From positions 28,057 to 92,056 of the forward strand of contig ONII01000019.1 in the NCBI GenBank assembly GCA_900317845.1: DNA of 64,000 nt. Direction: 5' to 3'. Within the stretch, counting starts at the first letter, position 1, and every line of letters begins with the position of its first letter. The notes beneath the pieces were generated by a model, which was not told the origin of the DNA, ran no database searches, and was given only the letters and a program-made list of their open reading frames with translations. A program made the translations under genes and the position numbers. Shown in pieces: positions 1,260 through 23,532 of this stretch. Origin of the DNA: an uncultured Bacteroidales bacterium (lineage in GTDB: Bacteria > Bacteroidota > Bacteroidia > Bacteroidales > UBA932).

Positions 1260-2361
1260 GCTCTACCTCGGGATGAAGGGTGATACCGTATTTTTGTTCT
1301 ATGGTTTTGATAATTTGCTGTTCCAGGCCGATGATATCCTCCGGAGAAGCTGTACCTGAGGCATTTACAATCACCAGCGGCTGCTTTTGGTACACTTGGG
1401 CGCCGCCGCTGCGTGCGCCTTTGAACCCGCACTGCTCGATCATCCAGGCGGCGGGAACCTTGATGCTGTCCCCTACCTCGTAATGAGGCACCTGATAGTC
1501 AGGGCCGTTGTCTTCCCGGGCGATGGCCACAATGCGCTGGAAGTGCTCGCGGGAGATGACGGGGTTGCAGAAGAAGCTGCCCGCACTCCCCAGTTCCTCC
1601 ACCGCCGGCAGTTTCTGCTGCCGAATGCCGATGATAGCGTTGCGGATATCAGCAGGGCGAAGCGTAGTGGAGTTCCCCGGAACAGGCGCTTTCCCGCTTT
1701 CCTCCAATGCTTTACGGACGCCGCCATAGTCCAGGCGGGGCTGGGGGGTGCGGCTGAGGCGGTAGGTGACGGCGGTGATGACGTAGCGGCCTTTCCACTC
1801 GGTCTTGAACTTGGAGGTGCGGTAGCCGTACGCGCAGGTGGCCGGGTCGATGGTGACAAACTGCCCCGTGGTGCGGTCATAGGCCCGGATGGAGGCGATG
1901 ATATCCTTGGCCTCCACGCCGTAGGCGCCAATGTTCTGCACGGCACTGGCCCCCACCTCCCCGGGAATGAGCGAGAGGTTTTCCGGGCCCCAGAGGCCCT
2001 CCTCCGCCGCCCAGGCGCAGAATTCGTCAAAGACCACCCCGGCACCAAGGGTGACCAGGGTTGGAGATACGCTCGCTTCGCTCGGTATGACAGAGGAGAC
2101 AACCAGCTGGGCATCCTCGTCATTCCGAGGCCCGGAGGGCCGAGTGAATCTCATGCCGCAATGCAGCACGGTGCCGGGGAAATCCCGGGTGAAGAGGAGG
2201 TTGGAGCCGCCGCCCATCACCAGAACGGGCTGGGGCAGGGAGTCCCAGTCCAGGGCCGGGAGATCCGCCTCTTCCGTCACCTCCACATACAGGGCGCAGT
2301 GCACCTGCATCCGGAAGGTGTTCCGGGCGGAGAGGTCGTAGTTTGCAGTCTTCGTTACCAT
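1252..2361 (-). CDS. murB: UDP-N-acetylenolpyruvoylglucosamine reductase MurB with an in-frame repeat insertion
   Basis: FAD- and NADPH-dependent reductase that makes UDP-MurNAc, the step after MurA. Type I MurB signatures in order are NTFRM, GGGSNLLF (FAD loop), LSLIPGEVGASAVQNIGAYGVE, CAYGYRTSKFK, SAGSFFCNPVI (catalytic Ser) and the C-terminal glutamate region HPEVEHV. I chose the ATG at 2361 because it leads straight into YDLSARNTF; an upstream in-frame start at 2427 adds only poorly conserved residues. The product is about 369 aa. Between the FAD loop and the LGAGVVFDEF strand there is an extra stretch of about 30 residues (RPSGPRNDEDAQ... to ...VIPSEASVSPT). It is encoded by a palindromic repeat also found between genes in this window. 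The 3' end overlaps murA by 8 bp. Confidence 0.95.
   Translation of the reverse strand: MVTKTANYDLSARNTFRMQVHCALYVEVTEEADLPALDWDSLPQPVLVMGGGSNLLFTRDFPGTVLHCGMRFTRPSGPRNDEDAQLVVSSVIPSEASVSPTLVTLGAGVVFDEFCAWAAEEGLWGPENLSLIPGEVGASAVQNIGAYGVEAKDIIASIRAYDRTTGQFVTIDPATCAYGYRTSKFKTEWKGRYVITAVTYRLSRTPQPRLDYGGVRKALEESGKAPVPGNSTTLRPADIRNAIIGIRQQKLPAVEELGSAGSFFCNPVISREHFQRIVAIAREDNGPDYQVPHYEVGDSIKVPAAWMIEQCGFKGARSGGAQVYQKQPLVIVNASGTASPEDIIGLEQQIIKTIEQKYGITLHPEVEHV
2063..2152 (-). repeat. Composite GTCAT/ATCTC palindromic repeat inserted in murB
   Basis: Two facing units: GAGAT...ATGAC at 2064-2091 and GTCAT...ATCTC at 2119-2152, separated by 27 nt. Each unit has an internal dyad (CTCGC-TTCG-type and CGAGGCCC/GGGCCGAG). 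The whole spans 89 bp between outer GAGAT and ATCTC and is translated in frame inside MurB. The MBOAT gene carries the same GAGAT..ATGAC / GTCAT..ATCTC architecture, also 89 bp, at 21993-22081. Confidence 0.8.
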
Positions 2362-2389
2362 AGGCTCAGGGGCACTTGGAACTATTATT

Positions 2390-2446
2390 GCCCCGCACTG
2401 GGGCTTATTGGGTGCCTTCTGGGGCAAAAAAGGTCGATTTTGCCCC
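2390..2446 (-). other. Two hairpins in the aspS-murB gap
   Basis: The 92-bp gap holds GCCCC-GCACT-GGGGC (2390-2404) and a 9-bp stem GGGGCAAAA/TTTTGCCCC (2421-2446, 8-nt loop). Neither is followed by a convincing U-tract on the minus strand, so they look more like processing or attenuation hairpins than a full terminator. Function is unknown. Confidence 0.5.
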
Positions 2447-2453
2447 GCAACGC

Positions 2454-4226
2454 TTATTCTGCGGCGGGACGCAGGTCTATCTGGAGTTCGTCCAGCTGGG
2501 CCTGGTCGATCTCCGACGGGCTGTCAATCATCACATCCCTGCCCTGGTTGTTCTTGGGGAAGGCGATGTAGTCGCGGATGGTGTCCTGACCGCCCATGAG
2601 GGCGCACACGCGGTCGAAGCCGAAGGCCAGACCTCCGTGCGGCGGAGCACCGAACTTGAAGGCGTTGATGATGAAACCGAACTTGTACTCGGCCTCTTCC
2701 GGGCCGATGCCCAGGACCTCGAACATGCGCTTTTGCATATCGGCATTATGGATACGGATGCTGCCGCCACCCAGCTCGTTGCCGTTGAGCACGAAGTCGT
2801 AGGCGTTGGCGCATACGCGCTCCAGGTCTTCTTTCTTGTCGCTGTAGAACCAGGCCTCGTGCTCCGGCTTGGGTGCCGTGAAGGGATGGTGCATGGCGTA
2901 GAAGCGCTGGGTTTCGTCGTCCCATTCCAGGAGCGGGAAGTCCACAATCCACAGCGGAGCGAACTCCTTGGGGTTGCGGAGGCCCAGGCGGCCACCCATT
3001 TCCAGGCGCAGGACGCCCAGCATGGTTTGCACTTTGCGCTTGTTGGCGCCGCTCATCACCAGCATGAGGTCCCCGGGCTTGGCTTCGGCCTTGGCGGCCA
3101 GCAGGGCCAGGTCATCGGCCCCGTAAAACTTGTCGATGGAGCTTTTGAAGGTGCCGTCAGCGTTGACTTTCACGTAGATGAGGCCCTTGGCGCCCACCTG
3201 CGGACGCTTGACCCATTCGGTGAGCTCGTCCAGCTGCTTGCGGGTATATTCCGCGGCACCGGGCACGCAGATGGCGCCAATATAGGCGGCATCGTCCAGG
3301 ACGCTGAAGCCTTTGCCCTTGGCGGCCTCCGTGAGCTCATGAATGGTCATGCCAAAACGGACATCCGGTTTGTCCGAACCGTAGTTGTCCATGGCATCGT
3401 ACCAGCTCATGCGGGGCATGGGGTTGGGGATGTCCACGCCCAGGACGTTCTTGAAGATGGTGCGCATCATGCCCTCGAACATGTTCAGGACATCTTCCTG
3501 CTCCACGAAGGACATTTCGCAGTCTATCTGGGTGAATTCCGGCTGGCGGTCTGCGCGGAGGTCTTCGTCGCGGAAGCAGCGGACAATCTGGAAGTAGCGG
3601 TCATAGCCGGCCACCATCAGGAGCTGCTTGAAGGTCTGGGGGCTCTGCGGCAGGGCGTAGAACTGGCCGGGGTTCATGCGGGAAGGAACCACAAAGTCGC
3701 GGGCGCCTTCCGGGGTGCTCTTGATGAGGTACGGGGTTTCAATTTCCATGAAACCGTTGGCGTCCAGGTAGTTGCGAACCTCATGTGCCACCCGGTGACG
3801 AAGGGCCAGGGCGCGCTGCAGCGGGCCGCGGCGGAGGTCCAGGTAGCGGTATTTGGCGCGAAGGTCTTCGCCGCCGTCGCTCTCTTCCTCAATGGTGAAG
3901 GGCGGCGTAACGCTCTTGTTCAGGATGGTGATGGCTTCCAGTTTGATCTCAATGTCGCCGGTGGGCATCTTGGGGTTTTTGGCCTGACGCTCTACCACCT
4001 CACCCTTAGCTTGAATCACGAATTCGCGGCCCAGGGAGGTAGCCACCTCCACCAGCGCTGCGGGGGCGTCCGCCTCCACTACCAGCTGGGTAATCCCATA
4101 ACGGTCCCTGAGGTCGATAAAGGTCATGCCGCCCAGTTTACGGGCTTTCTGGACCCATCCAGCCAGGGTCACCTGCTGTCCTTTGTTCTCAATGCGGAGT
4201 TCCCCGCATGTGTGTGTTCTGTACAT
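2454..4226 (-). CDS. aspS: Aspartate--tRNA ligase
   Basis: Class II aminoacyl-tRNA synthetase that charges tRNA-Asp. At 590 aa it has the length typical of the bacterial type. The order is an N-terminal OB-fold anticodon-binding domain ([18 protein letters not shown]), motif 2 around [18 protein letters not shown], the bacterial GAD insertion in the middle, and motif 3 near the C-terminus ([16 protein letters not shown]). The start ATG follows a 5' region of AT-rich sequence. It is the first gene of a leftward group with murB and murA. Identity is secure; whether it aminoacylates Asn-tRNA as well cannot be judged here. Confidence 0.97.
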
Positions 4227-4253
4227 ATAGTTTACTTGATTTCTTTCAAACTA

Positions 4254-4261
4254 CAAATTTA
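4254..4261 (-). promoter_or_regulatory. Candidate -7 box for aspS
   Basis: On the minus strand this reads TAAATTTG, matching the Bacteroidetes TAnnTTTG -7 consensus, 28 bp upstream of the aspS ATG. No good -33 TTTG is seen at the expected distance. Confidence 0.45.
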
Positions 4262-4310
4262 CAAAAACTATTTGGATTATATGCCTCGACTCTTCTGAAG
4301 CGTAAATAAG

Positions 4311-4341
4311 TTGTATATTTATTAAACTTTGTTTATCTTTG
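4311..4341 (+). promoter_or_regulatory. Bacteroidetes-type promoter for the HTH-nucleotidyltransferase gene
   Basis: TTG at 4311-4313, a 20-bp spacer, then TATCTTTG at 4334-4341. The predicted transcript start is a few bases before the ATG at 4356, leaving a very short leader. Confidence 0.65.
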
Positions 4342-4355
4342 CAAAAAACAGAAGT

Positions 4356-4856
4356 ATGGTTGCACCCAACATCAAACGCATGCGCCTTGCCAGAGGGATG
4401 ACCCAGGAACAAGTTGGGATTCTCGCTGGCATGACTAAATCGCAAATCTCCCGCATGGAAAACGGGAAACTGGGAAGTGCGGAAACGTTCTCCAGGGTCT
4501 TGGATGCGCTTGGCTACCGTTCCGTGGTCACCTATATAGATGAGCGCCCCAGTACAAAACTGGATAAAGAAACGGTTTTAAGCCTGCTAAAAGTTTACTA
4601 TTTATACAACCGGGCGCATTTGGGCATTGAGCGTATTGGCCTGTTTGGCAGTTTTGCCCGGGACGAGGCCGGACCGCAGAGCGATATTGACATCCTGGTG
4701 TCTCTGAAAAGGCCCTCCTTGTTTTTATACCAGACCATCACCGAGCAACTGGGAACGGTCTTGGGACGCAAAATAGACCTTGTTTCGGCCAAATCCCGTT
4801 TCCGGGAAGGTTTTCTTGAAAACATCCAAAAAGACATCGTCTATGTTACAGACTGA
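4356..4856 (+). CDS. Xre-type HTH fused to MNT-family nucleotidyltransferase (MntA-like antitoxin)
   Basis: The protein is 166 aa from the ATG at 4356, chosen because it follows a good promoter and starts directly at the HTH (MVAPNIKRMRLARGMTQEQV). Residues 1-60 are a Cro/C1-type helix-turn-helix. The C-terminal half is a minimal nucleotidyltransferase with the GSX10DXD motif (GSFARDEAGPQSDID). In MntA/HepT pairs this enzyme class AMPylates and neutralises a HEPN RNase toxin. The partner would be the next gene, which overlaps by 14 bp but survives only as a 49-aa remnant. The fused HTH suggests autoregulation. It may be an orphan antitoxin or have another role; the catalytic motif appears intact. 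Confidence 0.8.
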   Translation: MVAPNIKRMRLARGMTQEQVGILAGMTKSQISRMENGKLGSAETFSRVLDALGYRSVVTYIDERPSTKLDKETVLSLLKVYYLYNRAHLGIERIGLFGSFARDEAGPQSDIDILVSLKRPSLFLYQTITEQLGTVLGRKIDLVSAKSRFREGFLENIQKDIVYVTD

Positions 4857-4992
4857 AGAACGCATAGCAACGCTCCTGGATGCCGCCATTCAGGAAATGG
4901 AACTCCTGGCTCAAATGAGTGCCGATATTACCCGCCCGGATGATTTTGTCTCCAGCCTTTACGGAATGACGGTTTACAGGGCTTACAGATAG
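4843..4992 (+). pseudogene. Truncated HEPN (DUF86/HepT-like) toxin remnant
   Basis: An ORF of 49 codons overlaps the nucleotidyltransferase stop by 14 bp, the usual geometry of an antitoxin-toxin operon. Its sequence (MLQTEERIATLLDAAIQEM, then DDFVSSLYGMTVYRA) resembles the first helices of DUF86/HEPN proteins. These families normally continue for about 60-90 more residues, including the RX4-6H ribonuclease motif. Here a TAG follows at once, and the ksgA ATG begins 5 bp later. The catalytic part is therefore missing and the fragment should be inactive. The family match comes from recognition of the N-terminal pattern and is moderate. Confidence 0.6.
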
Positions 4993-4996
4993 TAAC

Positions 4997-5809
4997 ATGG
5001 AAGTACGTGCAAAAAAAGCCCTCGGGCAGCATTTTCTCACCGACCAAAAGGTCGCCAGGGCCATTGTGGATGCCCTGTCATGCCCGGCCCCGACCGGGCA
5101 TCTCTTCCCCGTGCTGGAGGTTGGGCCAGGGATGGGTGTGTTGACCCAGTACCTGCTGGAGCGGGAAGACATCGACCTTAAACTCATTGAGATTGACTCG
5201 GAGAGCGTAGAGTACCTGCTCACCCACTTTGCGGGCATGCAGGGGCGGCTCATGGAGGGCGATTTCCTCACCCTCAAACTGGAGAAGCTGTTCCCGGAGC
5301 AGTTTGCCATTATCGGCAATTTTCCGTACAACATTTCCTCGCAGATTTTCTTTAAGGTGCTGGACTACAAGGACCAGATTCCGCAGGTGGTGGGCATGGT
5401 GCAGAAGGAAGTGGCGGAGCGCATTGCGGAAAAACCCGGCTCCAAGACGTACGGCATCCTGAGCGTGCTGCTGCAGGCCTGGTACGACATTGAATACCTG
5501 TTCACCGTGGGCTCCGGCTGCTTTGCGCCCCCGCCCAAGGTGGAGAGCGCCGTCATCCGCCTCACCCGCAATAGCCGCACGGACCTCGGTTGCGACGAGG
5601 CCTTATTCAAAACCGTGGTAAAAACCGCTTTCGGACAGCGCCGCAAGATGATGCGCAATCCTCTAAAGCCGCTGGCCCGCGCCAAGGCGGAACGCAGCGG
5701 CTGGTCCGAGGAACAGTTAGCGGATTTCCTGGCTCAGGAGGTCTTTTCCCTCCGCCCGGAACGCTTATCCGTAGAAGATTTCGTGGCGCTTACCAACTTA
5801 CTGGCATAA
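4997..5809 (+). CDS. rsmA: 16S rRNA dimethyladenosine transferase KsgA/RsmA with a small repeat-derived insertion
   Basis: Dimethylates two adjacent adenosines near the 3' end of 16S rRNA using S-adenosylmethionine, late in 30S assembly. At 270 aa it has normal family length. Motifs are KKALGQHFLTDQ at the N-terminus, the SAM-binding LEVGPGMGVLTQ, and the catalytic IIGNFPYNISSQI. Between the first helix (AIVDAL) and LEVGPG lies SCPAPTGHLFPV, encoded by a 28-bp palindromic repeat (5077-5104). Bacteroidetes homologues usually have a shorter link there. The ATG is 5 bp after the HEPN remnant stop, so it may be cotranscribed with that module. The 3' end overlaps the convergent GH31 gene by 20 bp. 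Confidence 0.95.
   Translation: MEVRAKKALGQHFLTDQKVARAIVDALSCPAPTGHLFPVLEVGPGMGVLTQYLLEREDIDLKLIEIDSESVEYLLTHFAGMQGRLMEGDFLTLKLEKLFPEQFAIIGNFPYNISSQIFFKVLDYKDQIPQVVGMVQKEVAERIAEKPGSKTYGILSVLLQAWYDIEYLFTVGSGCFAPPPKVESAVIRLTRNSRTDLGCDEALFKTVVKTAFGQRRKMMRNPLKPLARAKAERSGWSEEQLADFLAQEVFSLRPERLSVEDFVALTNLLA
5077..5104 (+). repeat. 28-bp GTCAT...ATCTC palindrome inside ksgA
   Basis: Arms ATGCCCGG and CCGGGCAT form a perfect 8-bp stem. The 28-mer matches the unit in the MBOAT gene (21993-22020, opposite strand) at 26 of 28 positions, but it is read in a different frame relative to the codons in the two genes. Confidence 0.8.
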
Positions 5810-8102
5810 CGCAAGCCTCATGGGTGGCGGCGTTGTACTGGCATTCCAGCGTGAGTCCGTTGAGCGTAGCCTGCGGACAGCGGGAAGCTCCGCCCAGTAC
5901 CAGCGAGAGTTTGCGACTTACGGGTTTCCCTGCATAAGAGCCCTCTGAAGGGCCGATTTCTACCGTCACGCCTGCAGCGTTGGCGGTTTTTTCGATGCGC
6001 GTGGAGGCATACTGCGTGGGATAGGCCTGGGAAACGCCATCGTCCTCATAGTGCACATAGCTGCTATGTCCTTTGCCGGGGGCGATGTAGATGCGCAGCT
6101 CGTCGGAGATGGACTGCAGGTGCTGGATGCCCTCGCCGGCCAGCGGCAGGATGGCGCCGGCCTTCACGAACCAGCAGTTCTGGTCGATGGAATAGGTCAG
6201 TTTCTGAACCGTGCCGCCTTTCAGGATCTTGTGATGGGCCATATCGTACCAGTCGGTGCCGGCGGGGAGCCACACATCGCGGTGGGCCAGGCCATCGGCC
6301 CCAACGGGTTCGCATACCGTTGCGGCCAGGATATTATCGCCAAAGAAGTATTCCTGCTTCCAGGTATAAGCCTCGGCCTTTTCCGGATATTCATAATAGA
6401 GCGGACGGCACAGGGAAATACCCTTCTCGTAGGCCTGGCGGGCCATATCATAGATATAAGGCGTAAGGGCGTAGCGTAGTTCCAGGGCCTCCTTCATGTA
6501 CTGATAGTGCTCCGGGAACATCCAGATGCGGCGTTCCAGGATGGCCGATGACGTGCTGTGTGTCTTGAAAATCGGGGAAAATACGCCGTACTGCAGCCAG
6601 CGGGTGAAGAGTTCGGGATCCGTGGGATTGTCTTCCCGCTGCATGTGGCCGCCCAGGTCGTGGCCCCAGTAGCCGTAGAGCACGTTGGAAGCCGTGGCGG
6701 TGAATTCCGGCAGATAGCCCAGTACTTCCCACTTGATGAAGGTGTCACCGGAGAAGCCCAGCTGATAGCGATGGCTGCCCAGGCCGCCCCAGCGGTGGTA
6801 GATGAGCGGACGCTCGGCCTGTTCGGGGGCCAGGCCGCGGGAACGGCGGATCTTGTCGTGGAAGAAGGTATGGTTCAGCCAGAAGGTGTTGCTCAGCCCC
6901 GGCACATACTTGCTTTCCTTCCACTGCTGCCAGTCCAGCCACCAGAAATCCACGCCCTGCTTCTCCAGGGGATGCAGCACGGAGTTGAAATAGGCATCGG
7001 CCCAGGCACGCTGGTCCATGCGGAAGGGCACGCTGGCATGATAGCCGTCGCGCTTCACATAGCCGCGGGGACCGTCATAGTCGTCGGTACGCGACAGGTA
7101 GTCCTTCACGAAAGCCGGATACACCTGCTCCCGCACCACGATGCCGGAAGCCGGGTGCAGGTTGAGGGAGGTCTTCAGGTTCATGCTATGCACCTGGTTC
7201 AAGAAGCCTTCGGGATCTTCGATGAGGTCCCGGTTCCAAGTGTAGCCGGTCCAGCCGATGCTCTGGCCGAACTCGTCCCTACGCTGGCGCCGGGCGGCAC
7301 CCCGCCACGTCTCGTGCCAGTCCATGTCGATCACCATCACGTCGATAGGCAGCTCCCGCTGACGGAATTCCTGGCCTAGGGCGATGAATTCCTTGTCAGT
7401 ATAGGCCCAGTAGCGGCTCCACCAGTAACCGAAGACGAACTTGGGAGGCATGGGGATGTTGCCGGCCACTTTGGCGTAATCGGCCAGGGCGGCCTTGTAG
7501 TCGTGACCATAGGCGAACAGGTACAGGTCCTGACGCTCCCCTTCCGGCCGGGCGGCCACCCAGGAGCCCCAGTCGCTGTCATCGTCCACAAACAGGTGAC
7601 GCTGGCTCTCGTCCACAACGGCCCAGCCGTCGCGGGACAGGATGCCCTTCTCCATGGGGTCGTTGAAGTTGATCTTTTCCGGACCCTGGCAGCCGTCCAG
7701 CGTACGGGCGGTGCCCATCAGGTTGCCTTTGTCCTCCATGCCGGGATGCCACTTGACGGCCTTTCCGTTCAGTTTGAAGGACACGGACAGGTTGTCGGCC
7801 GACAAAGGACCTTCCCCGCCCTTGTACACGAGGGTAAGGGACTTCGTTTTCAGGGTCAGGGCTCCGCCCGTGCGGGAAACGCTGAAGGCCGGCACCGGCA
7901 GGTCGCGGTTCACAATAGCGAGGGAGGCGTGGTCTTCGAACTGGCCGTCGGCCGCCCATTCCAGGCGCAGCAGACGGTCCGTGAGCACGGTGAAACGGGC
8001 TTTTCCTTCCACCACCTGGGCCTTGGGATTGGCCACGGGATTCTGTGCGAAGGCGGAGATACTTGCCAGCAGGAGGCAAAGGACAAATAATCGGGCTTTC
8101 AT
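5790..8102 (-). CDS. Exported glycoside hydrolase family 31 (alpha-glucosidase type)
   Basis: The protein is 770 aa with a signal peptide (MKARLFVLCLLLASISAFAQ). It has an N-terminal beta-sandwich, then the GH31 barrel: FGYWWSRYWAYTD, VMVIDMDWHE, the nucleophile Asp at about residue 390 in FWWLDWQ, the acid/base Asp at about 453 in FSGDTF, and GYWGHDLGGH. C-terminal beta domains follow. It probably removes glucose from alpha-glucan oligosaccharides in the periplasm, the role of the SusB enzyme in the classical Sus locus, which belongs to a different family (GH97). It lies downstream of the GH13 genes but has its own promoter inside the preceding terminator. Linkage specificity (alpha-1,4, alpha-1,6 or xyloside) cannot be read from sequence. 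Confidence 0.93.
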   Translation of the reverse strand: MKARLFVLCLLLASISAFAQNPVANPKAQVVEGKARFTVLTDRLLRLEWAADGQFEDHASLAIVNRDLPVPAFSVSRTGGALTLKTKSLTLVYKGGEGPLSADNLSVSFKLNGKAVKWHPGMEDKGNLMGTARTLDGCQGPEKINFNDPMEKGILSRDGWAVVDESQRHLFVDDDSDWGSWVAARPEGERQDLYLFAYGHDYKAALADYAKVAGNIPMPPKFVFGYWWSRYWAYTDKEFIALGQEFRQRELPIDVMVIDMDWHETWRGAARRQRRDEFGQSIGWTGYTWNRDLIEDPEGFLNQVHSMNLKTSLNLHPASGIVVREQVYPAFVKDYLSRTDDYDGPRGYVKRDGYHASVPFRMDQRAWADAYFNSVLHPLEKQGVDFWWLDWQQWKESKYVPGLSNTFWLNHTFFHDKIRRSRGLAPEQAERPLIYHRWGGLGSHRYQLGFSGDTFIKWEVLGYLPEFTATASNVLYGYWGHDLGGHMQREDNPTDPELFTRWLQYGVFSPIFKTHSTSSAILERRIWMFPEHYQYMKEALELRYALTPYIYDMARQAYEKGISLCRPLYYEYPEKAEAYTWKQEYFFGDNILAATVCEPVGADGLAHRDVWLPAGTDWYDMAHHKILKGGTVQKLTYSIDQNCWFVKAGAILPLAGEGIQHLQSISDELRIYIAPGKGHSSYVHYEDDGVSQAYPTQYASTRIEKTANAAGVTVEIGPSEGSYAGKPVSRKLSLVLGGASRCPQATLNGLTLECQYNAATHEACVMPVSW

Positions 8103-8118
8103 ATCAGTTATTTTTCTA

Positions 8119-8157: not shown

Positions 8158-8221
8158 TCGCTCCAATGGTACAAACTACACACTAATGAACATTGGATTC
8201 ACGCCGCCTCACGACGGTGTT

Positions 8222-15789: not shown

Positions 15790-15801
15790 AAGGCAGTCCG
15801 A

Positions 15802-18732
15802 TTAGAAGGTGACGGTGGCACCCAGGGTGACCACGCGAGTTTCAGGATAGCCGGTGCCATTGTCCACGCCCGGAGTGAGACCGTTGGTGCTCAGCAGGGC
15901 CGGGTCTGTGCCGGTGTAGCCGGTGAAGGTGTACAAATCCGATGCGGTGAGGAATACGCGCAGGCTCTGCAGGATGTCTTTCTGCCGGGGGACGAAGGTG
16001 TAGCCCAGCGTGACATTCTGGATTTTCATGAAGTCACCCTTCTCCAGGAAATAGGACGTAACCACACCGCCGTATTCACGGACATTCTTGTCGGTGGTGT
16101 ATGCACTGCGGAAGACGTTGGCATTACCGGAACTCTGCAGGTTGCCGGCGCGGCGGTTGTTGTAAATCATATGGCCGAAGGCGCCGTTCATGAAGATGTT
16201 CAAATCCCAGTTCTTGTAACGGATGGTGTTGTTCCAGGAGAGGAAGAGCTTGGGAATGGTGTTGCCGATATAACGCTTGAAAGCGGCATTGGCCGATGCA
16301 GCGGTAATGGTGTTGCCTTCATTGTCATACACCATCATATCGCCGTACTCGTTCACGCCGGCGGCCTGGTAACCATACAACTGGCCGATACGGCTGCCTT
16401 CCGTATAGCGATAATAGTAAGAGGTCTGTCCCAGGCCGCCGGTTCCCAGCATGTCAATGTAGGAAGCGCCGTAGATCTGGTTGGACAGGGTCACGATGCG
16501 GGAATAACCCACAGAGGCATTGATACCGGAAGTCCACTTTACAGCGGTCTTGGCAAAGATGTCTCCTTCAATGGAAAGTTCGGCGCCCAGGTTCTGGGTC
16601 TTACCTACGTTTACCAGGATGGAACTGTGGATGAACGGAGGCTGGGGGGCCGTGTAGTTGTACAGCAGGTCCGGGCTCTCGCGGTCGTACAGGTCCAAAC
16701 TACCGCGCAGGCGGTTGTTGAAGAAGGCGAAGTCCACACCGAAGTTGAGGGCCATCAGCTTCTCCCAGCGCAGTTCAGGGTTCTCGTTGGAGGCGGGACG
16801 ATAACCGATGATCCATTCGCCGTCCATATAATACTGACCGTGGCTGCCGTAAGTAGGACGGGAGACGTTGGAACCGCCGCGACGGCCGGTGATACCGAAG
16901 GAGAAGCGGGGCTTGAGGCTGTTCACCCAATGCGCGCCGCTCATAAAGCCCATGTTGGCGATTTCCCAAGCGATGGAAGCGGCAGGAAAATTACCCCACT
17001 TGTTCTTTTCACCAAAGTTGGTGGCGCCTTCCCGGCGGATGGAGGCCTGGACGAAAATCAAATTGTTCCAGTTATAGTTGACACGGGCCAGGAGGGCGAT
17101 GACCTTGGAGAGGGACTTGCCGGAGCTCATGCCGGCCTGGGCGGGATTTTCGGTACGGGCCGTACCGGAGCCGATATCGTTCCAGAGGATGGAGTCATAG
17201 GCGAAACCGCGGTTGGTCATGCCCATGTTCTCCGAATTGAAATCCTGATAGGAATAGCCAGCCACAGCATTGATGTGGTGGGCATCCTTGTGGAAGGAGT
17301 AGTTGAACAGCCATTCCAACTGGTTGCGCCAGTTCTTGGAATAGTTGAGCGAAGCGGTTCCTTCATAGCCGTTCCAATACTTGTCGTGGGACTCGATGGG
17401 CGTGTAATTGTTGCTCTTGTAGTCGTTATAATCCAGCGAGTACGTGATCGTGGAATTGAAATTATGGACGTCGTTCTTGATGAAGTTCGCCTTGAGGGAT
17501 ACGGCGCCGGTGGCAAACAGGCGCTGGCCGTTTGCGGTCTTGTTCAGCATGGCTTCCACCGGGTTGGTCGCGTTGGTGGGAGCGGTGGGCTGGTAATAGG
17601 AGCCATCCTCATTATAAATAGGGAAGGTGGGGTTGATGGTGAGGGCTGTACCGAAGGAACCGTCGTTACCATATTCCTCGTTCACGCGGCGTACGTTCAA
17701 GGAAACGTTGATCTGGAAGATGTCCTTGATGAGGCGCTGCTCCAAAGCGGCGCGGGCGCCGAATTCTTCACGGGCGTCCACCAGGTCCACACCCAGGGAG
17801 TTCTTGTAGTTGACAGAGGCGTTGTAGGAGCCCTTCTTGGTGCTTCCGTCCACGGACACATAGTGGCTGTGGCCATAGGAGAACTTGCGCAGCAGGGCTT
17901 TGTACCAGTCGGTGCGGTAACCGTAGTCCGTACCGCGGCGGGATCGTACCCACTCATCGGCCGTAAGTACAGGGATGGGATCCTTGGCGAAGTTCACGTT
18001 GAAAGCGCCGTCGTAGGTGACATGTGCAGTGCCGGGTTCATCCTTGGAGCCCTTTCTGGTGGTGATGAGAATCACACCGTTAGCACCGCTGGTGCCGTAG
18101 ATGGAGGCCGATGCCGCGTCCTTCAGGACGGTCATGGACTCGATGTCCTGGGGAGACAGGCTGCGGAGTTCACCGCCGGGAATGCCGTCGATCACCACCA
18201 GAGGTCCGTTGCCGGCGTTCAGGGAAGTGGCGCCACGGATCTGAAAGTCAGAGCCGGAGTTCGGGTTGGAACCCTGGCTGGTAACGACGTTGAGACCGGC
18301 CACTTTACCCGTGAGCATGGTCATGGGGTTGTTGGTGGTGCCCCGGAAGAAATCTTTGCTGTCGACCTGTACGACGGAGGCCGACAATTCCTTCTTGGAC
18401 AGGGTGCCGTAGCCAATCACGACTACGTCATCCAAAAATTCGCTGTCTTCTTCCAACCGGATGGTCGCAGGGACCTCCTTGGCAGGGAAAACCTGTGTTG
18501 CATAGCCGATGCAACTGATTTCCACCAGTGCTTCGGGGGAAGAGACGCGCAGGATGTAGTCGCCGTCCAGCCCGGTAGCCGTGCCATTGGACGTGCCCTG
18601 TTCCATGACAGTGGCGCCAATGACGGGTCCTTGGCTGTCTAAGACCACACCCTTCACCTGGTATCCGCCCTGGGCGAACACCATGACCGTCAGGCTGAGC
18701 CAGAGGGTCAAAGCGGAAATAATCCTTTTCAT
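15802..18732 (-). CDS. susC: SusC-like TonB-dependent outer-membrane transporter
   Basis: The product is about 976 aa from the ATG at 18732, chosen because it starts the signal peptide MKRIISALTLWLSLTVMVFAQ; an upstream start adds 19 non-signal residues. The order is a carboxypeptidase-like regulatory domain (VKGVVLDSQGPVIGATV), the plug domain (QIRGATSLNAGNGPLVVIDG, SIYGTSGANGVILITTRKG) and a 22-stranded barrel ending in TRVVTLGATVTF with a terminal Phe. It imports starch oligosaccharides through the outer membrane, powered by TonB, with the SusD lid encoded next. It is the first gene of the leftward operon susC-susD-susE/F-amylase-susA and is probably activated by the SusR homologue upstream. 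Confidence 0.96.
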   Translation of the reverse strand: MKRIISALTLWLSLTVMVFAQGGYQVKGVVLDSQGPVIGATVMEQGTSNGTATGLDGDYILRVSSPEALVEISCIGYATQVFPAKEVPATIRLEEDSEFLDDVVVIGYGTLSKKELSASVVQVDSKDFFRGTTNNPMTMLTGKVAGLNVVTSQGSNPNSGSDFQIRGATSLNAGNGPLVVIDGIPGGELRSLSPQDIESMTVLKDAASASIYGTSGANGVILITTRKGSKDEPGTAHVTYDGAFNVNFAKDPIPVLTADEWVRSRRGTDYGYRTDWYKALLRKFSYGHSHYVSVDGSTKKGSYNASVNYKNSLGVDLVDAREEFGARAALEQRLIKDIFQINVSLNVRRVNEEYGNDGSFGTALTINPTFPIYNEDGSYYQPTAPTNATNPVEAMLNKTANGQRLFATGAVSLKANFIKNDVHNFNSTITYSLDYNDYKSNNYTPIESHDKYWNGYEGTASLNYSKNWRNQLEWLFNYSFHKDAHHINAVAGYSYQDFNSENMGMTNRGFAYDSILWNDIGSGTARTENPAQAGMSSGKSLSKVIALLARVNYNWNNLIFVQASIRREGATNFGEKNKWGNFPAASIAWEIANMGFMSGAHWVNSLKPRFSFGITGRRGGSNVSRPTYGSHGQYYMDGEWIIGYRPASNENPELRWEKLMALNFGVDFAFFNNRLRGSLDLYDRESPDLLYNYTAPQPPFIHSSILVNVGKTQNLGAELSIEGDIFAKTAVKWTSGINASVGYSRIVTLSNQIYGASYIDMLGTGGLGQTSYYYRYTEGSRIGQLYGYQAAGVNEYGDMMVYDNEGNTITAASANAAFKRYIGNTIPKLFLSWNNTIRYKNWDLNIFMNGAFGHMIYNNRRAGNLQSSGNANVFRSAYTTDKNVREYGGVVTSYFLEKGDFMKIQNVTLGYTFVPRQKDILQSLRVFLTASDLYTFTGYTGTDPALLSTNGLTPGVDNGTGYPETRVVTLGATVTF

Positions 18733-18799
18733 AGGGTTGCGTGTGTTGGTTATAGTTTTGGAGTTGTGTTCCAATGTGTTGTGTACCAATGTGGTTTCG

Positions 18800-18807
18800 C
18801 AAAAGTA
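18800..18807 (-). promoter_or_regulatory. Candidate -7 box of the sus operon
   Basis: On the minus strand it reads TACTTTTG (TAnnTTTG), 68 bp before the susC ATG. No -33 TTTG stands at the usual 19-21 bp, which fits a promoter that needs an activator such as SusR. Confidence 0.5.
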
Positions 18808-18868
18808 CCCCCTTTCACGGGCGCGTCCTATTTAAATAAAGGAATTATAATGCCTAAACGCATAATAT

Positions 18869-18905
18869 TTTTGCCAACACACTGAATATCAGCGTATTGG
18901 CAAAA
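18869..18905. promoter_or_regulatory. Large dyad between susR and susC
   Basis: Arms TTTTGCCAA (18869-18877) and TTGGCAAAA (18897-18905) flank a 19-bp centre that itself contains CTGA-ATA-TCAG. It lies just after the susR stop and about 60 bp upstream of the sus -7 box. It may be the SusR operator or the susR transcript end; there is no clear U-tract for the latter. Confidence 0.5.
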
Positions 18906-18932
18906 TGAAAAAAAGAGAAAAATATAACGGGA

Positions 18933-20528
18933 TTATTTCCCTATTTGCATGATTTCCGCCTCAAAACGTTCGTTTTCCACCCAGGATTTGTTCTTTACAC
19001 GTGTTTTGTACGTATTGATGGTGTGTACAGAGTAGTCCAGGAAGCGGGCGATGCGTTCGGGTTCCTGGATGCCCAGACGGATAAGGGCGAAGATGCGCAT
19101 CTCGGGATTCAGCCCATGTGTGGGAAAAATCTGCTCCGTTTCAGGGAACAAGGCGTTGTAGTCGTTGACGAATGTGGGGAATATCTTGAGGAAGGTGTTG
19201 TCGAAGGACTCATACATGCTGTCCCTTTCCTTGTCCAACGTAGATTCTTTGAGGGAACGCCGAAGTTCATCGTACTGGCGCGTAACCAGCATGCGATCCA
19301 CCAGCTTGTATAGCTGGGACATCTTTTCAATGAATTCGGAATTGATATAGAACGAGTTGCCGATGTATTCCGCCTTGATGGCATTGGCTTCCGCCAGGCG
19401 GGCGTTGGCGTCCTCCAGCCGTCGGTTGCGCTCTTCAATGCCGGCCCGGGCCTCGTGCAGGCGGCGGTTCTGCCGGCGGAAAAACCAAAGGGATACCACG
19501 GCCGCCACGGCAATGATGACGGTGAGGATAATGCTGATTCCCATGAGCTTATGCTGCCGGCTCAGGCTGTCGTAGTGGTTTTTCTCTACCAGGGGGAGCA
19601 CTGCCCCCACCTCCAGTTTACGCAGGCGGGCATTGTAGAAATTAGCATCGTCGAAAGAAGCCCTCACGTAGCGGGTGGGCCGTTCTACCTCTCCGCGGCG
19701 GGAGAGGTATTCGGCCAGCATGCGCAGTGCAGTGGTTTCCTTGGTGGACGATTTGATATCGCAGATGGCCGATTCACAAATGGCCAGAAGCGCCTCATCT
19801 TCCCGTCCCAGGAGTTGGAGCATCCAGCCCATGGACGAGGCATAGATGGCGCGGGTGTGCAAATCCAGTCCCGGGCTTTCCAGCAGGGCGGCAAATTCTT
19901 CCACGCCTTCCTCAAACTGCCTGTTTTCCATCAGGAAATTGGCGTTATACTCATGCCAGATACGGGAATTTTCCGGAACGGTCTCCAGGACTTTTCGGCT
20001 GTAGTATTCTCCGGCCTGCGAGTACTGGTCCCAGTACGGCTCGGTTTGGGCGTATCCTCTGGCTGAGTAGTTGAGCCGCACCATCGTCCTGTAATAACTG
20101 AGCCGGGCGCGGGAAGAGAGCCGGTCTTCCGAGATTGTCGATGCCGTGTCGAAGGCTTCCTTGAACAGACCGGCGTTGATGAGGCAGATGACCTTGGCCA
20201 ATTCGGCCTCGGCTACCAAGTCCTGAATTGGTGAATTGGCCGCCATCTCGCCCAGGGCCAGCGCATAGTTGTAGGCCGAATCGTACTTATAACTGGCATA
20301 TTCCTCGTACAGGTGGAACGTGGCTTCCCAGCGGCTGCTTTCGTCCACGGCGTCGCGAAGGTCTCCCCTGAGCCGGTTGATCCTTTCCTCCTTACTGGCG
20401 TCATAATTAGCCTTTTCCTCCAGGGTAGCATCCACCTCCCGGAGTTTTTGCTCGATTTCGTGGTTGTGTCCCCATGCCGTACCCATCGACAGGCACAGGA
20501 AAAGCATAAGAAAAACAGGTCTGTTCAT
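18933..20528 (-). CDS. susR: SusR-like membrane-bound starch-responsive transcriptional activator
   Basis: The protein is 531 aa. A signal-like N-terminus (MNRPVFLMLFLCLSMGTAWG) is followed by an all-helical, TPR-like periplasmic region (about 25-320), one transmembrane helix (about 327-346, ISIILTVIIAVAAVVSLWF) and a cytoplasmic coiled coil (AGIEERNRRLEDANARLAEA). A C-terminal LuxR-like helix-turn-helix follows (ALIRLGIQEPERIARFLDYS, VHTINTYKTRVKNKS). This is the architecture of Bacteroides SusR, which senses maltose or maltooligosaccharides and switches on the sus genes. It is encoded divergently in function but on the same strand, upstream of susC, with about 200 bp between, where the dyad lies. 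The match is by architecture and context; the ligand is inferred. Confidence 0.88.
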   Translation of the reverse strand: MNRPVFLMLFLCLSMGTAWGHNHEIEQKLREVDATLEEKANYDASKEERINRLRGDLRDAVDESSRWEATFHLYEEYASYKYDSAYNYALALGEMAANSPIQDLVAEAELAKVICLINAGLFKEAFDTASTISEDRLSSRARLSYYRTMVRLNYSARGYAQTEPYWDQYSQAGEYYSRKVLETVPENSRIWHEYNANFLMENRQFEEGVEEFAALLESPGLDLHTRAIYASSMGWMLQLLGREDEALLAICESAICDIKSSTKETTALRMLAEYLSRRGEVERPTRYVRASFDDANFYNARLRKLEVGAVLPLVEKNHYDSLSRQHKLMGISIILTVIIAVAAVVSLWFFRRQNRRLHEARAGIEERNRRLEDANARLAEANAIKAEYIGNSFYINSEFIEKMSQLYKLVDRMLVTRQYDELRRSLKESTLDKERDSMYESFDNTFLKIFPTFVNDYNALFPETEQIFPTHGLNPEMRIFALIRLGIQEPERIARFLDYSVHTINTYKTRVKNKSWVENERFEAEIMQIGK

Positions 20529-20606
20529 GAGGTAAAGTTACTGATTTTCTTGCAAATACAAAAATAGTATTACTTTTACGCGAGTATATTATTGGATTCC
20601 GATGCC

Positions 20607-20676
20607 GTCATTGCCGGCTCTAACCCTCCTCATCCCGGGCTTGACACTCCTCATCCTGGGCTTGATCCGGGATCTC
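20607..20676. repeat. GTCAT...ATCTC palindromic repeat, intergenic copy
   Basis: Starts GTCATTGCCGG and ends CCGGGATCTCC, with two internal CTCATCC(C/T)GGGCTTGA tandem units. It is the same family as the copies inside murB, ksgA and the MBOAT gene. Confidence 0.65.
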
Positions 20677-20793
20677 CTTGCGCGAAGGTCCATCCCCTAG
20701 ACCTTCAGTACACTTTTCCTACACTTTTTTTGCGCGAAGGTCCACGCCTTAAGGACGAGACTAGGTTCTGATCCATCTCTCCTCCCATCACCG

Positions 20794-20987
20794 TTAAAGC
20801 ACACATACCCCGTCCTGGACTACCTCCAATGCATCACCCCGTGCTTTAACCACCCTTTAAACACCCCGTTAAAGCACACCTACCCCGTCCTGAGCCGCGT
20901 CCAGGGGCTCACCCCGTGCTTTAACAACCCTTTCCACCCCCGCCTAAAGCATACTTTCGGCCCCCTAGGATGCCGAGTGCGCTTTAA
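20794..20987. repeat. Tandem array of inverted TTAAAGCAC/GTGCTTTAA modules
   Basis: Three head-to-tail units of about 75 bp. Units 1 (20794-20849) and 2 (20869-20924) each open with TTAAAGCACAC.TACCCCGTCC and close with CACCCCGTGCTTTAA. The third (20945-20987) is decayed (TAAAGCATAC ... GCGCTTTAA). Each unit can fold on its 9-bp arms. No coding potential is seen. Confidence 0.65.
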
Positions 20988-21006
20988 TGCCGGAAGGAAA
21001 GCGGAA

Positions 21007-21043
21007 CCCTCTTGGGCCCTATAACGGAGCCCGAGAGGGTTTT
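21007..21043 (+). other. Terminator-like hairpin in the repeat-rich gap
   Basis: Stem CCCTCTTGGGC/GCCCGAGAGGG (11 bp, one G-T) followed by TTTT. Two further GC-rich hairpins follow at about 21050-21075 (CCGCCTTGC/GCAAGGCGG) and 21091-21121 (GCCGCCGCAC/GTGCGGCGGC). No gene upstream on this strand needs a terminator. Confidence 0.45.
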
Positions 21044-21132
21044 CGCTAGCCGCCTTGCCGCGTATTGCAAGGCGGTGGTTCCGTGTCCTGTCAGCCGCCG
21101 CACCTGGTTGCGTGCGGCGGCCACTCACCGGG

Positions 21133-21237
21133 CTGGTCGGTATCATGTTGACAATCAACACTTTACTCACTTTCCTCGGCTCTTTTTGCGCCGAGGATTA
21201 TCCGTAAGTAACTGACAATCTGCGCGTTATCGACCAG
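21133..21237. repeat. MITE-like palindrome, copy 1 (divergent)
   Basis: Ends are CTGGTCGGTATC and GTTATCGACCAG. The centre is CCTCGGC/GCCGAGG followed by ATTAT, matching the CCTCGTTC/GAACGAGG core of the other copies in layout and in length (105 bp). Confidence 0.6.
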
Positions 21238-21358
21238 TTGGATTTTCGATTATGCGTCCCTGGAACAGATTAGTTGCCGCCGGAACAGATTATGTGGCCT
21301 CTTGAATAGAGTGTGTGGACACCCGTCTGGTAAACCTTTTCAAGACAACACATTTTGT

Positions 21359-21464
21359 AATGATTCATAAAGTATTAATACACAGCAAGATACGCATAAT
21401 CCTCGTTCGTTTTTTAACGAGGATTATATAGTAACTGATTGATAGCCAATATTTTAGCCGTCAC
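21359..21464. repeat. MITE-like palindrome, copy 2 (left end degenerate)
   Basis: Core ATAATCCTCGTT/AACGAGGATTAT centred near 21411, with a right end TTAGCCGTCAC. The left terminal repeat is not recognisable, so that boundary is estimated from symmetry. Confidence 0.55.
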
Positions 21465-21482
21465 CCCTGACATCCTGGGCGT

Positions 21483-21589
21483 GTGACACTTAAGTAACTG
21501 ATTGTCTGCAACTTACACAACAATCCTCGTTCGAAAAGTGAACGAGGATTATATTGGAAGTTACTGTGGCTCAACGAGTTAGCGATCAG
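21483..21589. repeat. MITE-like palindrome, copy 3 (107 bp)
   Basis: Ends GTGACACTTAA and TTAGCGATCAG, core AATCCTCGTTC/GAACGAGGATT. It is exactly as long as the two copies flanking clpB and lies 12 bp past the MBOAT stop codon. Confidence 0.7.
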
Positions 21590-21603
21590 GCGCGACGAGA
21601 GGC

Positions 21604-23532
21604 CTAGAACTGGAAGTAGATGAAGGTCTGGAGGTCGGCGGTGATGAACTGGTAGAAGAAGACGATGATGAGCACCACCACCAGGGCCATGACGGGCAGC
21701 GGGAGGCGGGCGAAAACAATCCGGTAACGGCGTTTGAAGCGCTCCGGCAGCCAGTGGATGAGCATGCCCAGCAGAAAGACCAACAGCACGGCCCGGTGCT
21801 GCCAGGCCATCGCGGGCACCAGCGACAAATCCCACGCACCGCCAATCTGGTTCACCATGTTCTTGGCGGTGTTCCAGGCCTGCTCATTGGCCAGGGCCGG
21901 GTCCAGGTTGGAGCCGCTGCGGAAGAACAGGCGGGTGAAGGTGATGAACACGAAGGTCTGGAAGATGTCCCACGCGCGGGAGAGCCAGCGGAGAGATGCC
22001 CGGTCGGAGTCGGGCATGACAGAGGCGGAGCCGGGCATGACGGCCGCTCCTTCTGTCATTGCCGGCTTGACCGGCAATCTCCGGATAAGCGCTTTTACGA
22101 CCGTACCGGCCAGGATAATCAGGGTCCAGACAAAGAACATGTTCCACACGGGATAGTGCAGGGTGAAGGAGAGGGTGCCGCACAAGGCGGTGACCAGGCC
22201 GATGATCCCCAGCTTCTGTGTCATGGTCCGTTTGGTCCAGACCTTATAAATCACCATGCCCAGGCCGTTGAGGCCGCCCCAAATCATGAAATTCCAGCTG
22301 GCGCCGTGCCACAGGCCGCCCAGCAGCATGGTGTTCATGGAGTTGATGTTGGTGGTGATAAGTTTGCGGTCCCCCGGCCGCAGCCACGCCCAGAGGCCAA
22401 TGCCGGCCGCCACCACAAAAACGCCAAAGGCCACCCACCAGGAGCCGCTGAGGAAACTGCCGAATACCGCCACCGCCAGGATAATCACAAAGGTGGCCGG
22501 CGTGGCGTTGCGGTTACCGCCGAGGGGAATGTACAGGTAGTCCCGGAGCCAGCGGCTAAGCGACATGTGCCAGCGGCGCCAGAACTGCTGCGTGTTCACG
22601 GCCTTGTACGGCGAATCGAAGTTCTTGGGCAGGTAGAAGCCCATGAGCATGGCAACGCCCGTAGCGATGTCCGTGTAGCCGGAAAAATCGGCATAGACCT
22701 GCAGCGAATAGCAGAACAGGGCACTTAAATTCTCGAAGCCGCTGTACAGCAGCGGGTTCTCGAACACGCGGTCGCAGAAGTTCACCGCCAGATAGTCCGC
22801 CAGAATGAGCTTCTTGAGGAGGCCGTTCATGATCCAGAAAACGGCAATGCCGAACCAGCGACGGCTCAGGTTATACGGCTTATGCAGCTGTTCCACGAAC
22901 TCCACGGCACGGACGATAGGACCCGCTACCAGTTGCGGGAAAAAGCTCAGGTAGAAGCCAAAGTCCAGGAAGTTCCCCACCGGGGCAATCTTCCGCCGCT
23001 TGACGTCCACCACATAGCTCACCGCCTGGAAGGTAAAGAAAGAGATGCCTACCGGGAGAATGATGGCATCGACCCGGAAAACTTCCGCGCCAACAAGCAT
23101 ATTCAGCCATTCGCCCAGGACGTCGTGCACCTGCAGGTGCAGCCCCAACAGGTTATTCACAAAATCCGTAAGGAAGTACGCGTATTTGAAATAGGCCAGG
23201 ATGCCCAGGTCCACCACCACGCTCAGCGCCGTTACGGCCGAACGTCCCCTCTCGGATTTGAGACGATGCAACCACTTGGCTGCAAAGAAGTTATAGACAA
23301 TAACAAAGAGCAGGAGCGCCAGGAACACGCCACTGGTCTTGTAGTAGAAGAACAGCGACACGGCAAACAGATAGCCGTTGCGCAGCAGCACCTTGGAGTG
23401 GAAGAGCGAGAACACCGCAAATACCAGCGCAAAGAACGCCCAGAAGTAGAACTGGGTGAACAGCAGCGGATGGGCCTGGTCAAAGGAGAGCAGGCTCTGG
23501 AAAAAGTCCCGTATGATGTCCCACAGTGTCAT
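21604..23532 (-). CDS. MBOAT-family O-acyltransferase (AlgI/DltB-like)
   Basis: A 642-aa polytopic membrane protein with about 11-12 hydrophobic segments. Family landmarks are ILPVGISFFTFQAVSYVVDV, FFPQLVAGPIVR, YADFSGYTDIATG, FWRRWHMSLSRWLRDYLYIPLGGNR and the putative catalytic His in GGLWHGASWNF. Such enzymes move acetyl groups across the inner membrane for modification of extracellular polysaccharide. The start ATG overlaps the stop of the upstream SGNH gene (ATGA), so translation is coupled. Near residues 485-514 about 30 extra residues (PVKPAMTEGAA... ...VMPDSDRASL) are encoded by palindromic repeats, in a cytoplasmic or loop region before RWLSRAWDIFQTF. Substrate is unknown. Confidence 0.92.
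   Translation of the reverse strand: MTLWDIIRDFFQSLLSFDQAHPLLFTQFYFWAFFALVFAVFSLFHSKVLLRNGYLFAVSLFFYYKTSGVFLALLLFVIVYNFFAAKWLHRLKSERGRSAVTALSVVVDLGILAYFKYAYFLTDFVNNLLGLHLQVHDVLGEWLNMLVGAEVFRVDAIILPVGISFFTFQAVSYVVDVKRRKIAPVGNFLDFGFYLSFFPQLVAGPIVRAVEFVEQLHKPYNLSRRWFGIAVFWIMNGLLKKLILADYLAVNFCDRVFENPLLYSGFENLSALFCYSLQVYADFSGYTDIATGVAMLMGFYLPKNFDSPYKAVNTQQFWRRWHMSLSRWLRDYLYIPLGGNRNATPATFVIILAVAVFGSFLSGSWWVAFGVFVVAAGIGLWAWLRPGDRKLITTNINSMNTMLLGGLWHGASWNFMIWGGLNGLGMVIYKVWTKRTMTQKLGIIGLVTALCGTLSFTLHYPVWNMFFVWTLIILAGTVVKALIRRLPVKPAMTEGAAVMPGSASVMPDSDRASLRWLSRAWDIFQTFVFITFTRLFFRSGSNLDPALANEQAWNTAKNMVNQIGGAWDLSLVPAMAWQHRAVLLVFLLGMLIHWLPERFKRRYRIVFARLPLPVMALVVVLIIVFFYQFITADLQTFIYFQF
21993..22082 (-). repeat. 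Composite GTCAT/ATCTC palindromic repeat inserted in the MBOAT gene
   Basis: GAGAT...ATGAC (21993-22020) and GTCATTGCC...GGCAATCTC (22055-22081) face each other around a third partial unit (GCCGGGCATGAC, 22030-22041). The span is 89 bp from outer GAGAT to ATCTC, equal to the murB insertion. Confidence 0.8.

Follow-up and report, generated by a model that had tools for sequence, protein, structure and literature searches.

The DNA analysed here, referred to as the window, is a stretch of 64,000 nucleotides from an uncultured Bacteroidales bacterium (contig ONII01000019.1, positions 28057-92056; C38 among the 39 contigs of its 2.41-Mb genome). It carries murB, ksgA and a gene for an MBOAT-family O-acyltransferase (the MBOAT gene), and short palindromic units with GTCAT and ATCTC ends lie inside all three genes and between other genes. 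The units fit the superfamily of CGTC-tagged repetitive extragenic palindromes (REPs), a kind of repeat that is already known. Places were accepted as strict units when they had GTCAT...ATCT[CT] or ATCCC ends and at least four contiguous outer pairs; a rule of eight stem positions was dropped in favour of this one because it missed the units of the CGAG type, which in the window have 4 contiguous pairs compared with 7-8 in the CCGG type. Under the four-pair rule the window contains 6 strict units, against 0.29 on average and never more than 3 in 100 dinucleotide-shuffled versions, and 5 of them lie in murB, ksgA and the MBOAT gene, whose reading frame stays open through each (Table 1).

Table 1. 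Genes, repeat units and related places; positions are those of the window unless a contig or a locus number is given. Family 2 is a second repeat family described in the text.
Feature	Position	Strand	Remarks
murB	1255..2361	(-)	369 aa from internal Met; FAD_binding_4, MurB_C
Stretch at murB site 2 like part of family 2	1657..1683	(-)	Judged by eye; relatives carry family 2 there
CGTC-type unit GTCATACCGAGCGAAGCGAGCGTATCTC in murB	2064..2091	(-)	Read VIPSEASVS, phase 0
CGTC-type unit GTCATTCCGAGGCCCGGAGGGCCGAGTGAATCTC in murB	2119..2152	(+)	Faces the 2064-2091 unit; antisense reading RFTRPSGPRND
ksgA	4997..5806	(+)	270 aa; RrnaAD 4-231 spans the unit
Lone CGTC-type unit GTCATGCCCGGCCCCGACCGGGCATCTC in ksgA	5077..5104	(+)	Read SCPAPTGHL, phase 1
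Intergenic decayed unit cluster ending GATCCGGGATCTC	20607..20676	(+)	Fails strict rule
MBOAT-family O-acyltransferase	21607..23532	(-)	642 aa
CGTC-type unit GTCATGCCCGACTCCGACCGGGCATCTC in MBOAT gene	21993..22020	(-)	Read VMPDSDRAS, phase 0
Partial third unit in MBOAT gene	about 22022-22041
CGTC-type unit GTCATTGCCGGCTTGACCGGCAATCTC in MBOAT gene	22055..22081	(+)	Faces the 21993-22020 unit; antisense reading RLPVKPAM
Intergenic CGTC-type unit GTCATACCGAGGCCAAAGGCCGAGTGTATCTC	27193..27224	(-)	Passes strict rule
Intergenic partial unit TGTCATGCCTGGCCCGGCCAGGCA	36801..36824	(-)	Without ATCTC tail; fails strict rule
Family 2, own-genome loci L287-L300	e.g. G000:C38:27429-27476		Just outside the window
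Family 2, further loci	L049, L050, L073, L077, L088, L092, L274, L278, L283

These results bear out the initial annotation of this DNA, which had reported the units in the three genes. Its observation that the ksgA unit and the minus-strand MBOAT unit, both 28-mers, agree at 26 of 28 bases (2 differ) and are read in different phases was also reproduced. The facing layout and 89-bp span that it ascribed to the murB and MBOAT pairs hold for both, with the tags inward in each, once the MBOAT pair is taken as 21993-22081, the end proposed at 22082 being one base too long. Among the three intergenic copies that it listed, only that at 27193 is a good unit, whereas the other two are decayed or partial. 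Its statement that the repeats add about 30, 10 and 30 residues is right for the repeat-coded length but not as a net gain, since unit-free relatives have a loop of their own at these places.

The units are in clear excess over the whole genome. The CCNG pattern GTCATNCCNGNN{6,24}ATCTC gave 42 matches and the CGA pattern GTCATNYCGANN{6,28}ATCTC gave 50, each against 1 in the reversed control. A looser pattern, GTCATN{13,33}ATCTC, gave 181 matches against 24 in its reversed control, which was rejected as a measure of significance because it understates chance; the rows listed for two other genomes were nearly all stemless by eye. For the placement of units we used a sample consisting of the unit-like places in the first 100 of the 181 loose matches (complete to C28:74454) together with later CCNG-pattern matches; C36:16877, C37:29981 and CGAG-type places after C28:74454 fall outside it. 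Joining strict units less than 150 nt apart yielded 74 clusters with 90 units, including one (L031) that meets the four-pair rule and looks like chance. Forty of the 74 clusters stood in an open frame flanked on either side by positive codon scores, 23 were intergenic by this rule, 10 weak and 1 at an edge; the ksgA cluster, whose unit is near the start codon, was reassigned manually from the weak to the in-gene class, which brings the number in open coding frames to 41.

These 41 clusters correspond to 35 open reading frames (ORFs), L001 and L002 being the same gene and counted once, and 33 of the 35 match Pfam at E <= 0.001; L020 and L032 were counted as open without a Pfam match, and the 50 intragenic units include 3 from these two ORFs. 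In 18 of the 35 ORFs the insertion is spanned by the best stretch of a Pfam family. By their Pfam matches, UvrA, an alpha-2-macroglobulin and a hybrid sensor kinase have three clusters each, and further targets include MutL, MutY, DnaX, MnmA, MetG, RsmE, RlmN, TatD, an MFS transporter and two ketoacyl synthases. The three genes named at first do hold units but were too narrow a set, as the sampled part of the genome has 33 such genes with Pfam support. Long ORFs (34 of them) occupy about 87% of the window, so that 41 of 74 in genes is below the random share and still far from the extragenic habit of REPs. The base preceding GTC was T in 48, C in 39 and G in 3 of the 90 units. Among the 25 GTC-tagged stems of at least 7 bp the tag was CGTC in 22, TGTC in 2 and GGTC in 1, and the tail was CTC in 23, CTA in 1, CCC in 1 and CCA in 0, at loci mostly picked by the ATCTC pattern. 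Neighbouring units (16 pairs) had their tags inward in 11 cases, outward in 2 and in tandem in 3.

The units in ksgA, murB and the MBOAT gene were then compared with the same places in relatives. Those with a name belong to Bacteroidota; almost all are uncultured Bacteroidales or Bacteroidia, most of them are metagenome-assembled genomes (MAGs), and many come from ruminants. In AlphaFold models the inserts of KsgA and MurB are predicted to lie in loops. Residues 27-36 of KsgA, coded by the unit, form the loop that connects helix 17-26 to strand 37-42 (mean pLDDT 94.1). The repeat-coded residues 70-100 of MurB, counted from the internal Met, sit between strands 61-68 and 101-106 and include a short strand, 73-75, early on, and the only runs of at least three residues with pLDDT under 50 fall there (79-91 and 93-96; mean for the model 85.7). 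In the nucleotide comparison of ksgA over nine species, our genome, G053 and G019 have one unit type, G067 has a third type, in G054 the insert is long and of a different sort, and G070, G044 and G003 are without a unit; G073 carries a unit of the type seen in G067. The ksgA of G005 carries another unit type, with flanks 98% identical to ours upstream (80 nt) and 92% downstream (150 nt); there is 1 extra nucleotide before the unit and there are 2 after it, so that the reading frame inside the unit differs while that of the gene is kept. In murB, the distance between the same motifs is 156 nt in our genome and mostly 102 nt among the unit-free relatives listed; other units occur in G005, G054, G067, G003, G073 and G048, and repeats of family 2 in G053, G007 and G050.

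A separate observation concerns the KsgA of G017 (L055). This protein contains two copies of a peptide that looks repeat-coded, PGRIHSRFAAAECGLS / PGRVHSRSAAAECGLS, one following the GPGMGVLTQYL motif and the other in the C-terminal region, which suggests yet another in-frame repeat family.

For the MBOAT gene, in which the repeats code for residues 484-514, 106 loci were collected, of which 105 had the site, 100 were at least 62% identical and 90 were non-identical. Unit-free loops measured 123 to 228 nt, and our own loop 192 nt. In a clade of 45 rows, picked after the tree (a quick one) had been seen, the loop was filled in 22; the 45 rows outside the clade had no unit according to the script. 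Two loci (L098 and L103) that the script had missed were labelled as occupied by hand, two with two types (L164 and L193) were scored as CGAG in the type test, and degenerate remnants (e.g. L161) were scored as empty. Parsimony gave 15 changes of occupancy and 20 changes of type, compared with means of 15.1 and 20.1 in 300 shuffles of the labels. Occupancy of the MBOAT loop thus shows no closer fit to the tree than randomised labels, and turnover is saturated on this tree. The farther MBOAT relatives lack these stretches, as called by the script, but close relatives repeatedly gain, lose or change the unit. Taken together, the aligned orthologues indicate that at the compared loops units have been gained, lost and retyped repeatedly, not once.

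The same loops receive a second, unrelated repeat, here called family 2, which shares loops with CGTC units in relatives; in a gene taken by motif for a putative aminotransferase, both families were found at one spot in different species. Family 2 occurs at 14 places in our genome (pattern control 0), and its core pattern was matched in 38 of 61 genomes of the genus. Its arms, inverted copies 10-31 nt long in which one mismatch was accepted, are specific to each locus and enclose a core hairpin, CATGGCC/GGCCGTG, whose loop CCCTC pairs with a downstream GAGGG as a pseudoknot; the pairings seen there are CCCTC/GAGGG, CCCGT/ACGGG, CCCAT/ATGGG and CCCAC/GTGGG. Pairs were counted on 16 of the 32 sequences found, and the structure was drawn on the same alignment. 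In these 16 copies, 5 of 12 pairs showed two-sided change (shuffled mean 3.4, 13 of 500 shuffles as high), covarying cells numbered 23 against 5.8 (0 of 500), all pseudoknot pairs were kept, and the number of pair types was not raised (8 against 9.0). No family 2 match near a gathering score was obtained in Rfam. By codon scores, 9 of the 14 own copies lie in open coding frames, two of them barely. No clean empty allele was seen that would support or refute an origin of the arms by inverted target duplication. The stretch of murB at 1657-1683 is, from its likeness to this family, probably a family 2 remnant.

The commonest unit type varies between close genomes. Raw matches of the CGA and CCNG patterns, a few of which arise by chance and which leave the CTGAG type outside the count, were 50 and 42 in our genome, 53/34 in G053, 71/12 in G005, 62/3 in G073, 42/13 in G067, 0/60 in G070, 0/32 in G044, 3/36 in G019, 11/43 in G003 and 89/2 in G006 (ten of the 61 genomes of the genus that were counted). 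The unit found in ksgA, murB or the MBOAT gene was of the genome's commoner type in 9 of 13 hand-scored cases, with 3 unscorable and our own genome omitted as mixed. Bursts of one type, or conversion, are possible sources of these lineage-specific types.

Genes do not read the units in arbitrary frames. The 50 intragenic units cover all six classes of orientation and phase, which confirms the earlier proposal that their common ancestor is DNA and not peptide. Phase 0 was used in 34 of the 50, whereas 16.4 were expected with a uniform choice over open frames and 19.9 with pyrimidine weighting. With random choice among the open frames of each unit as the null model, the mean net charge of the unit peptides was -0.96 against 0.13 expected (0 of 20,000 draws as low), and aromatic residues plus cysteine amounted to 0.14 per peptide against 0.52, beyond all 20,000 draws. 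The charge bias persisted with one unit per locus (30 loci; -1.23 against 0.12 expected), fell outside all 10,000 draws when pyrimidines at codon positions were weighted in, and was present both within phase 0 (p 0.001, n 34) and in the other phases (p 0.04, n 16). Unit lengths modulo 3 were 1 in 29, 0 in 21 and 2 in none of the 50 in-gene units, compared with 14, 8 and 7 of 29 intergenic units. Collectively, genes read the units in acidic, aromatic-poor frames, which is a filter at the peptide level; the biases of frame and length are what selection against harm would leave if the inserts are translated.

Our preferred reading, to which we give a probability of a little over three in four, is that mobile hairpins of the CGTC-REP kind survive in surface loops by passing a frame and peptide filter, and that permissive loops are hit again or overwritten. 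The repeats would be non-autonomous, DNA-mobile hairpins, mostly of 27-40 nt, with (C/T)GTC at one foot. Copies in genes would persist if their position is a surface loop or linker, if the frame is kept and if the resulting peptide is acidic with few aromatic residues or cysteines, and permissive loops would be hit or overwritten repeatedly, often by the commonest unit type of the lineage. We infer that the inserts are translated, that single-stranded hairpins are the form in which the units are mobilised, with a Y1 transposase of the RAYT (REP-associated tyrosine transposase) kind assisting in trans, and that a change of type at an occupied loop reflects exchange or re-insertion there. What the comparisons themselves establish is the gain, loss and change of units between orthologues, the open frames through the units, the non-random use of frames and the repeated change at the same loops.

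As regards the mobiliser, our genome has three Y1_Tnp-like genes, one of them above the family cut-off, and 46 of the 61 genus genomes have at least one Y1_Tnp match (138 matches, of which 63 were read as ORFs and used for flanks and tree). A summed pattern count of at least 20 was reached by 17 of the 46 genomes with Y1_Tnp and by 0 of the 15 without (Fisher p 0.006; rank test p 0.014; Spearman 0.31). A linked RAYT was rejected as a candidate, the flanks and the tree being negative and the copy number weakly positive. On both sides of one Y1_Tnp-like gene (L011, 887-926 and 2014-2053) a repeat TTTTACATAA..GATAATCAGC, unlike the CGTC units, was seen; these copies may be the ends of that gene's own element.

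Several results weigh against the preferred reading. Only one of the three Y1_Tnp-like ORFs of our genome reached E 0.001 in hmmscan, and the association between Y1_Tnp and unit counts ignores phylogeny and MAG completeness. A unit lay within 400 bp of only 3 of the 63 Y1_Tnp ORFs, one of the 3 having an odd sequence, and none was flanked on both sides; in the tree of the 63 rows, inspected by eye, no clade was common to all unit-rich genomes. No pair of empty and filled alleles at the strain level was seen among the orthologues compared. Several clusters sit in one gene and so are not independent. The excess of phase 0 may in part be an effect of insertion phase, cysteine alone was not significantly depleted (p 0.07), and hydropathy showed no bias relative to random open frames (p 0.18) and was rejected as the peptide filter. 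Finally, the unit was off the genome's commoner type in 4 of the 13 scored loop cases (ksgA and MBOAT in G053, murB and MBOAT in G067).

The most serious rival, which we hold to be a real contender at somewhat longer than even odds, is that old insertions were altered where they stood. Each loop would have received a single hit, and gene conversion or template switching from other copies would then have rewritten the body of the unit, with no new transposition. Several MBOAT units of the CCGG, CGAG, CTGAG and other types have, by eye, a common 3' junction (ESPA, QSPA or KSPA), which favours replacement between fixed ends; the constancy of the GTCAT and ATCTC ends while the bodies vary, and the 9 of 13 matches to the commoner genome type, point the same way. 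The ksgA gene of G005, however, differs also at its junctions, which favours re-insertion, and neither the flips of occupancy between close relatives nor the presence of family 2 in the same loops is expected from change in place. An improbable alternative is that the loop DNA carries a sequence-specific target motif. A pyrimidine precedes GTC in 87 of the 90 units and positions are re-used in ksgA, murB and the MBOAT gene; but two families with different ends enter the same loops, and the pyrimidine may belong to the unit, CGTC and TGTC being the described tags. Still less credible is selection of the encoded peptides or RNA hairpins for a function in the host genes, which would agree with the non-random use of frames and with the continued occupation of some loops. 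Against it, occupancy of the MBOAT loop has no phylogenetic persistence, unit-free orthologues are common, the peptides vary in sequence, frame and orientation, and a filter against harm explains the bias. A single metagenome-derived genome of 39 contigs, with relatives that are uncultured and mostly MAGs, could mislead through chance or assembly error, but this can practically be set aside in view of the 6 strict units against 0.29 and of the same MBOAT loop being filled in MAGs of different studies.

A bolder version of repeated insertion into permissive loops would make these enzyme loops shared docking sites of the genus, in which CGTC and family 2 cassettes are swapped in frame faster than species form, by an active single-strand system acting in trans and with the peptide as the sole filter. 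We regard this version as rather unlikely in its full extent; if true, the loop would be a stretch of protein driven by DNA and rewritten all the time.

Other repeats were observed in the window. AT-rich inverted copies around AATCCTCGTTC..GAACGAGGATTATATT lie at 34223-34332, 36629-36738 and 21475-21592, that is, on the flanks of the ORF at 34336-36498 and again downstream of the MBOAT gene. In the intergenic stretch 20791-20940, a 75-nt sequence with CCGTTAAAGCACAC..CCCCGTGCTTTAA is present as two copies in tandem that are 81% similar.

CGTC-tagged REPs have been described in five phyla, including Bacteroidetes (Di Nocera et al., 2013; PMC3733652). The accessible parts of that paper define them by a tag that is often TGTC or CCTC, a stem of 8-9 bp starting with AT and a tail that is mostly CCA. 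Most are intergenic, more than half of the intragenic ones form dimers or groups coding for 20-30 residues, many in repair genes, and the same parts report the absence of a dedicated transposase and leave the mobiliser open. Since palindromes of this kind from Bacteroidetes and intragenic REPs of several species were thus on record in 2013, the novelty claimed in the initial annotation does not stand in that form. An account of in-frame copies in Bacteroidales was not found among the open-licence papers listed, nor do the accessible parts of a Porphyromonas repeat paper and of a review of miniature inverted-repeat transposable elements (PMC10969869) describe any; in the literature searched we found no earlier description of the scale in genes and of the loop behaviour.

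The units of the window resemble the CGTC REPs, as far as these are described in the accessible text, in the (C/T)GTC tag, the short unpaired tail and the frequent pairing. An AT stem base is seen as well, but the AT ends are here part of the search pattern, and the stems have 7-8 contiguous pairs in the CCGG type and 4 in the CGAG type of the window compared with the defined 8-9 bp. The CCGG type, with 7-8 bp stems and 5-6 nt loops, comes close to them. Both have in-frame genic copies that include DNA repair genes (by Pfam, UvrA with three clusters, MutL and MutY here) and no linked transposase (3 of 63 Y1_Tnp ORFs near a unit here). They differ in the tail, which is CTC here (23 of 25, partly by search design) and mostly CCA there, a feature that 'mostly' keeps from being strictly defining; in the tags, inward here (11 of 16) and mostly outward (HH) there, a tendency and not a definition; and in having more than half of the sampled clusters in genes. 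GTAG REPs are likewise small tetranucleotide-tagged hairpins, often paired, and are thought to be moved as single strands by Y1 enzymes (PMC6006769, in part); the tag here differs, and none of the 63 Y1_Tnp genes examined is flanked on both sides by units as in a REPtron.

With dozens of its relatives sequenced, this lineage allows in-frame palindromes to be traced loop by loop, and the repeats point to peptide-level selection on repeat-coded sequence. They also serve as a warning against taking the loops of such enzymes for conserved protein features, since these can be mobile DNA. Two questions that the accessible literature leaves open become testable, namely what mobilises CGTC REPs and whether one orthologous site changes by re-insertion or in place. 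The latter was raised for Rickettsia palindromic elements (RPEs), to which the initial annotation had rightly compared the units; RPE-4 and RPE-6 are members of the CGTC-tagged superfamily (PMC3733652). A review counts 44 RPE insertions in genes of R. conorii (PMC10969869), and in R. japonica orthologues carry different RPE groups at one place, with hotspot and common origin both left open (PMC3767692). As far as the accessible parts of these sources go, the units share with RPE-4, RPE-6 and RPE-7 the ATGAC motif (the reverse complement of GTCAT), the in-frame insertion and the varied or absent unit at the same place. They belong to Bacteroidota and not to Rickettsiales, and although they work like RPE-4, RPE-6 and RPE-7 we do not file them as RPEs; unlike what is described for RPEs in those parts, they can be followed at one loop through 45 rows of one clade and share their loops with a second, unrelated family.

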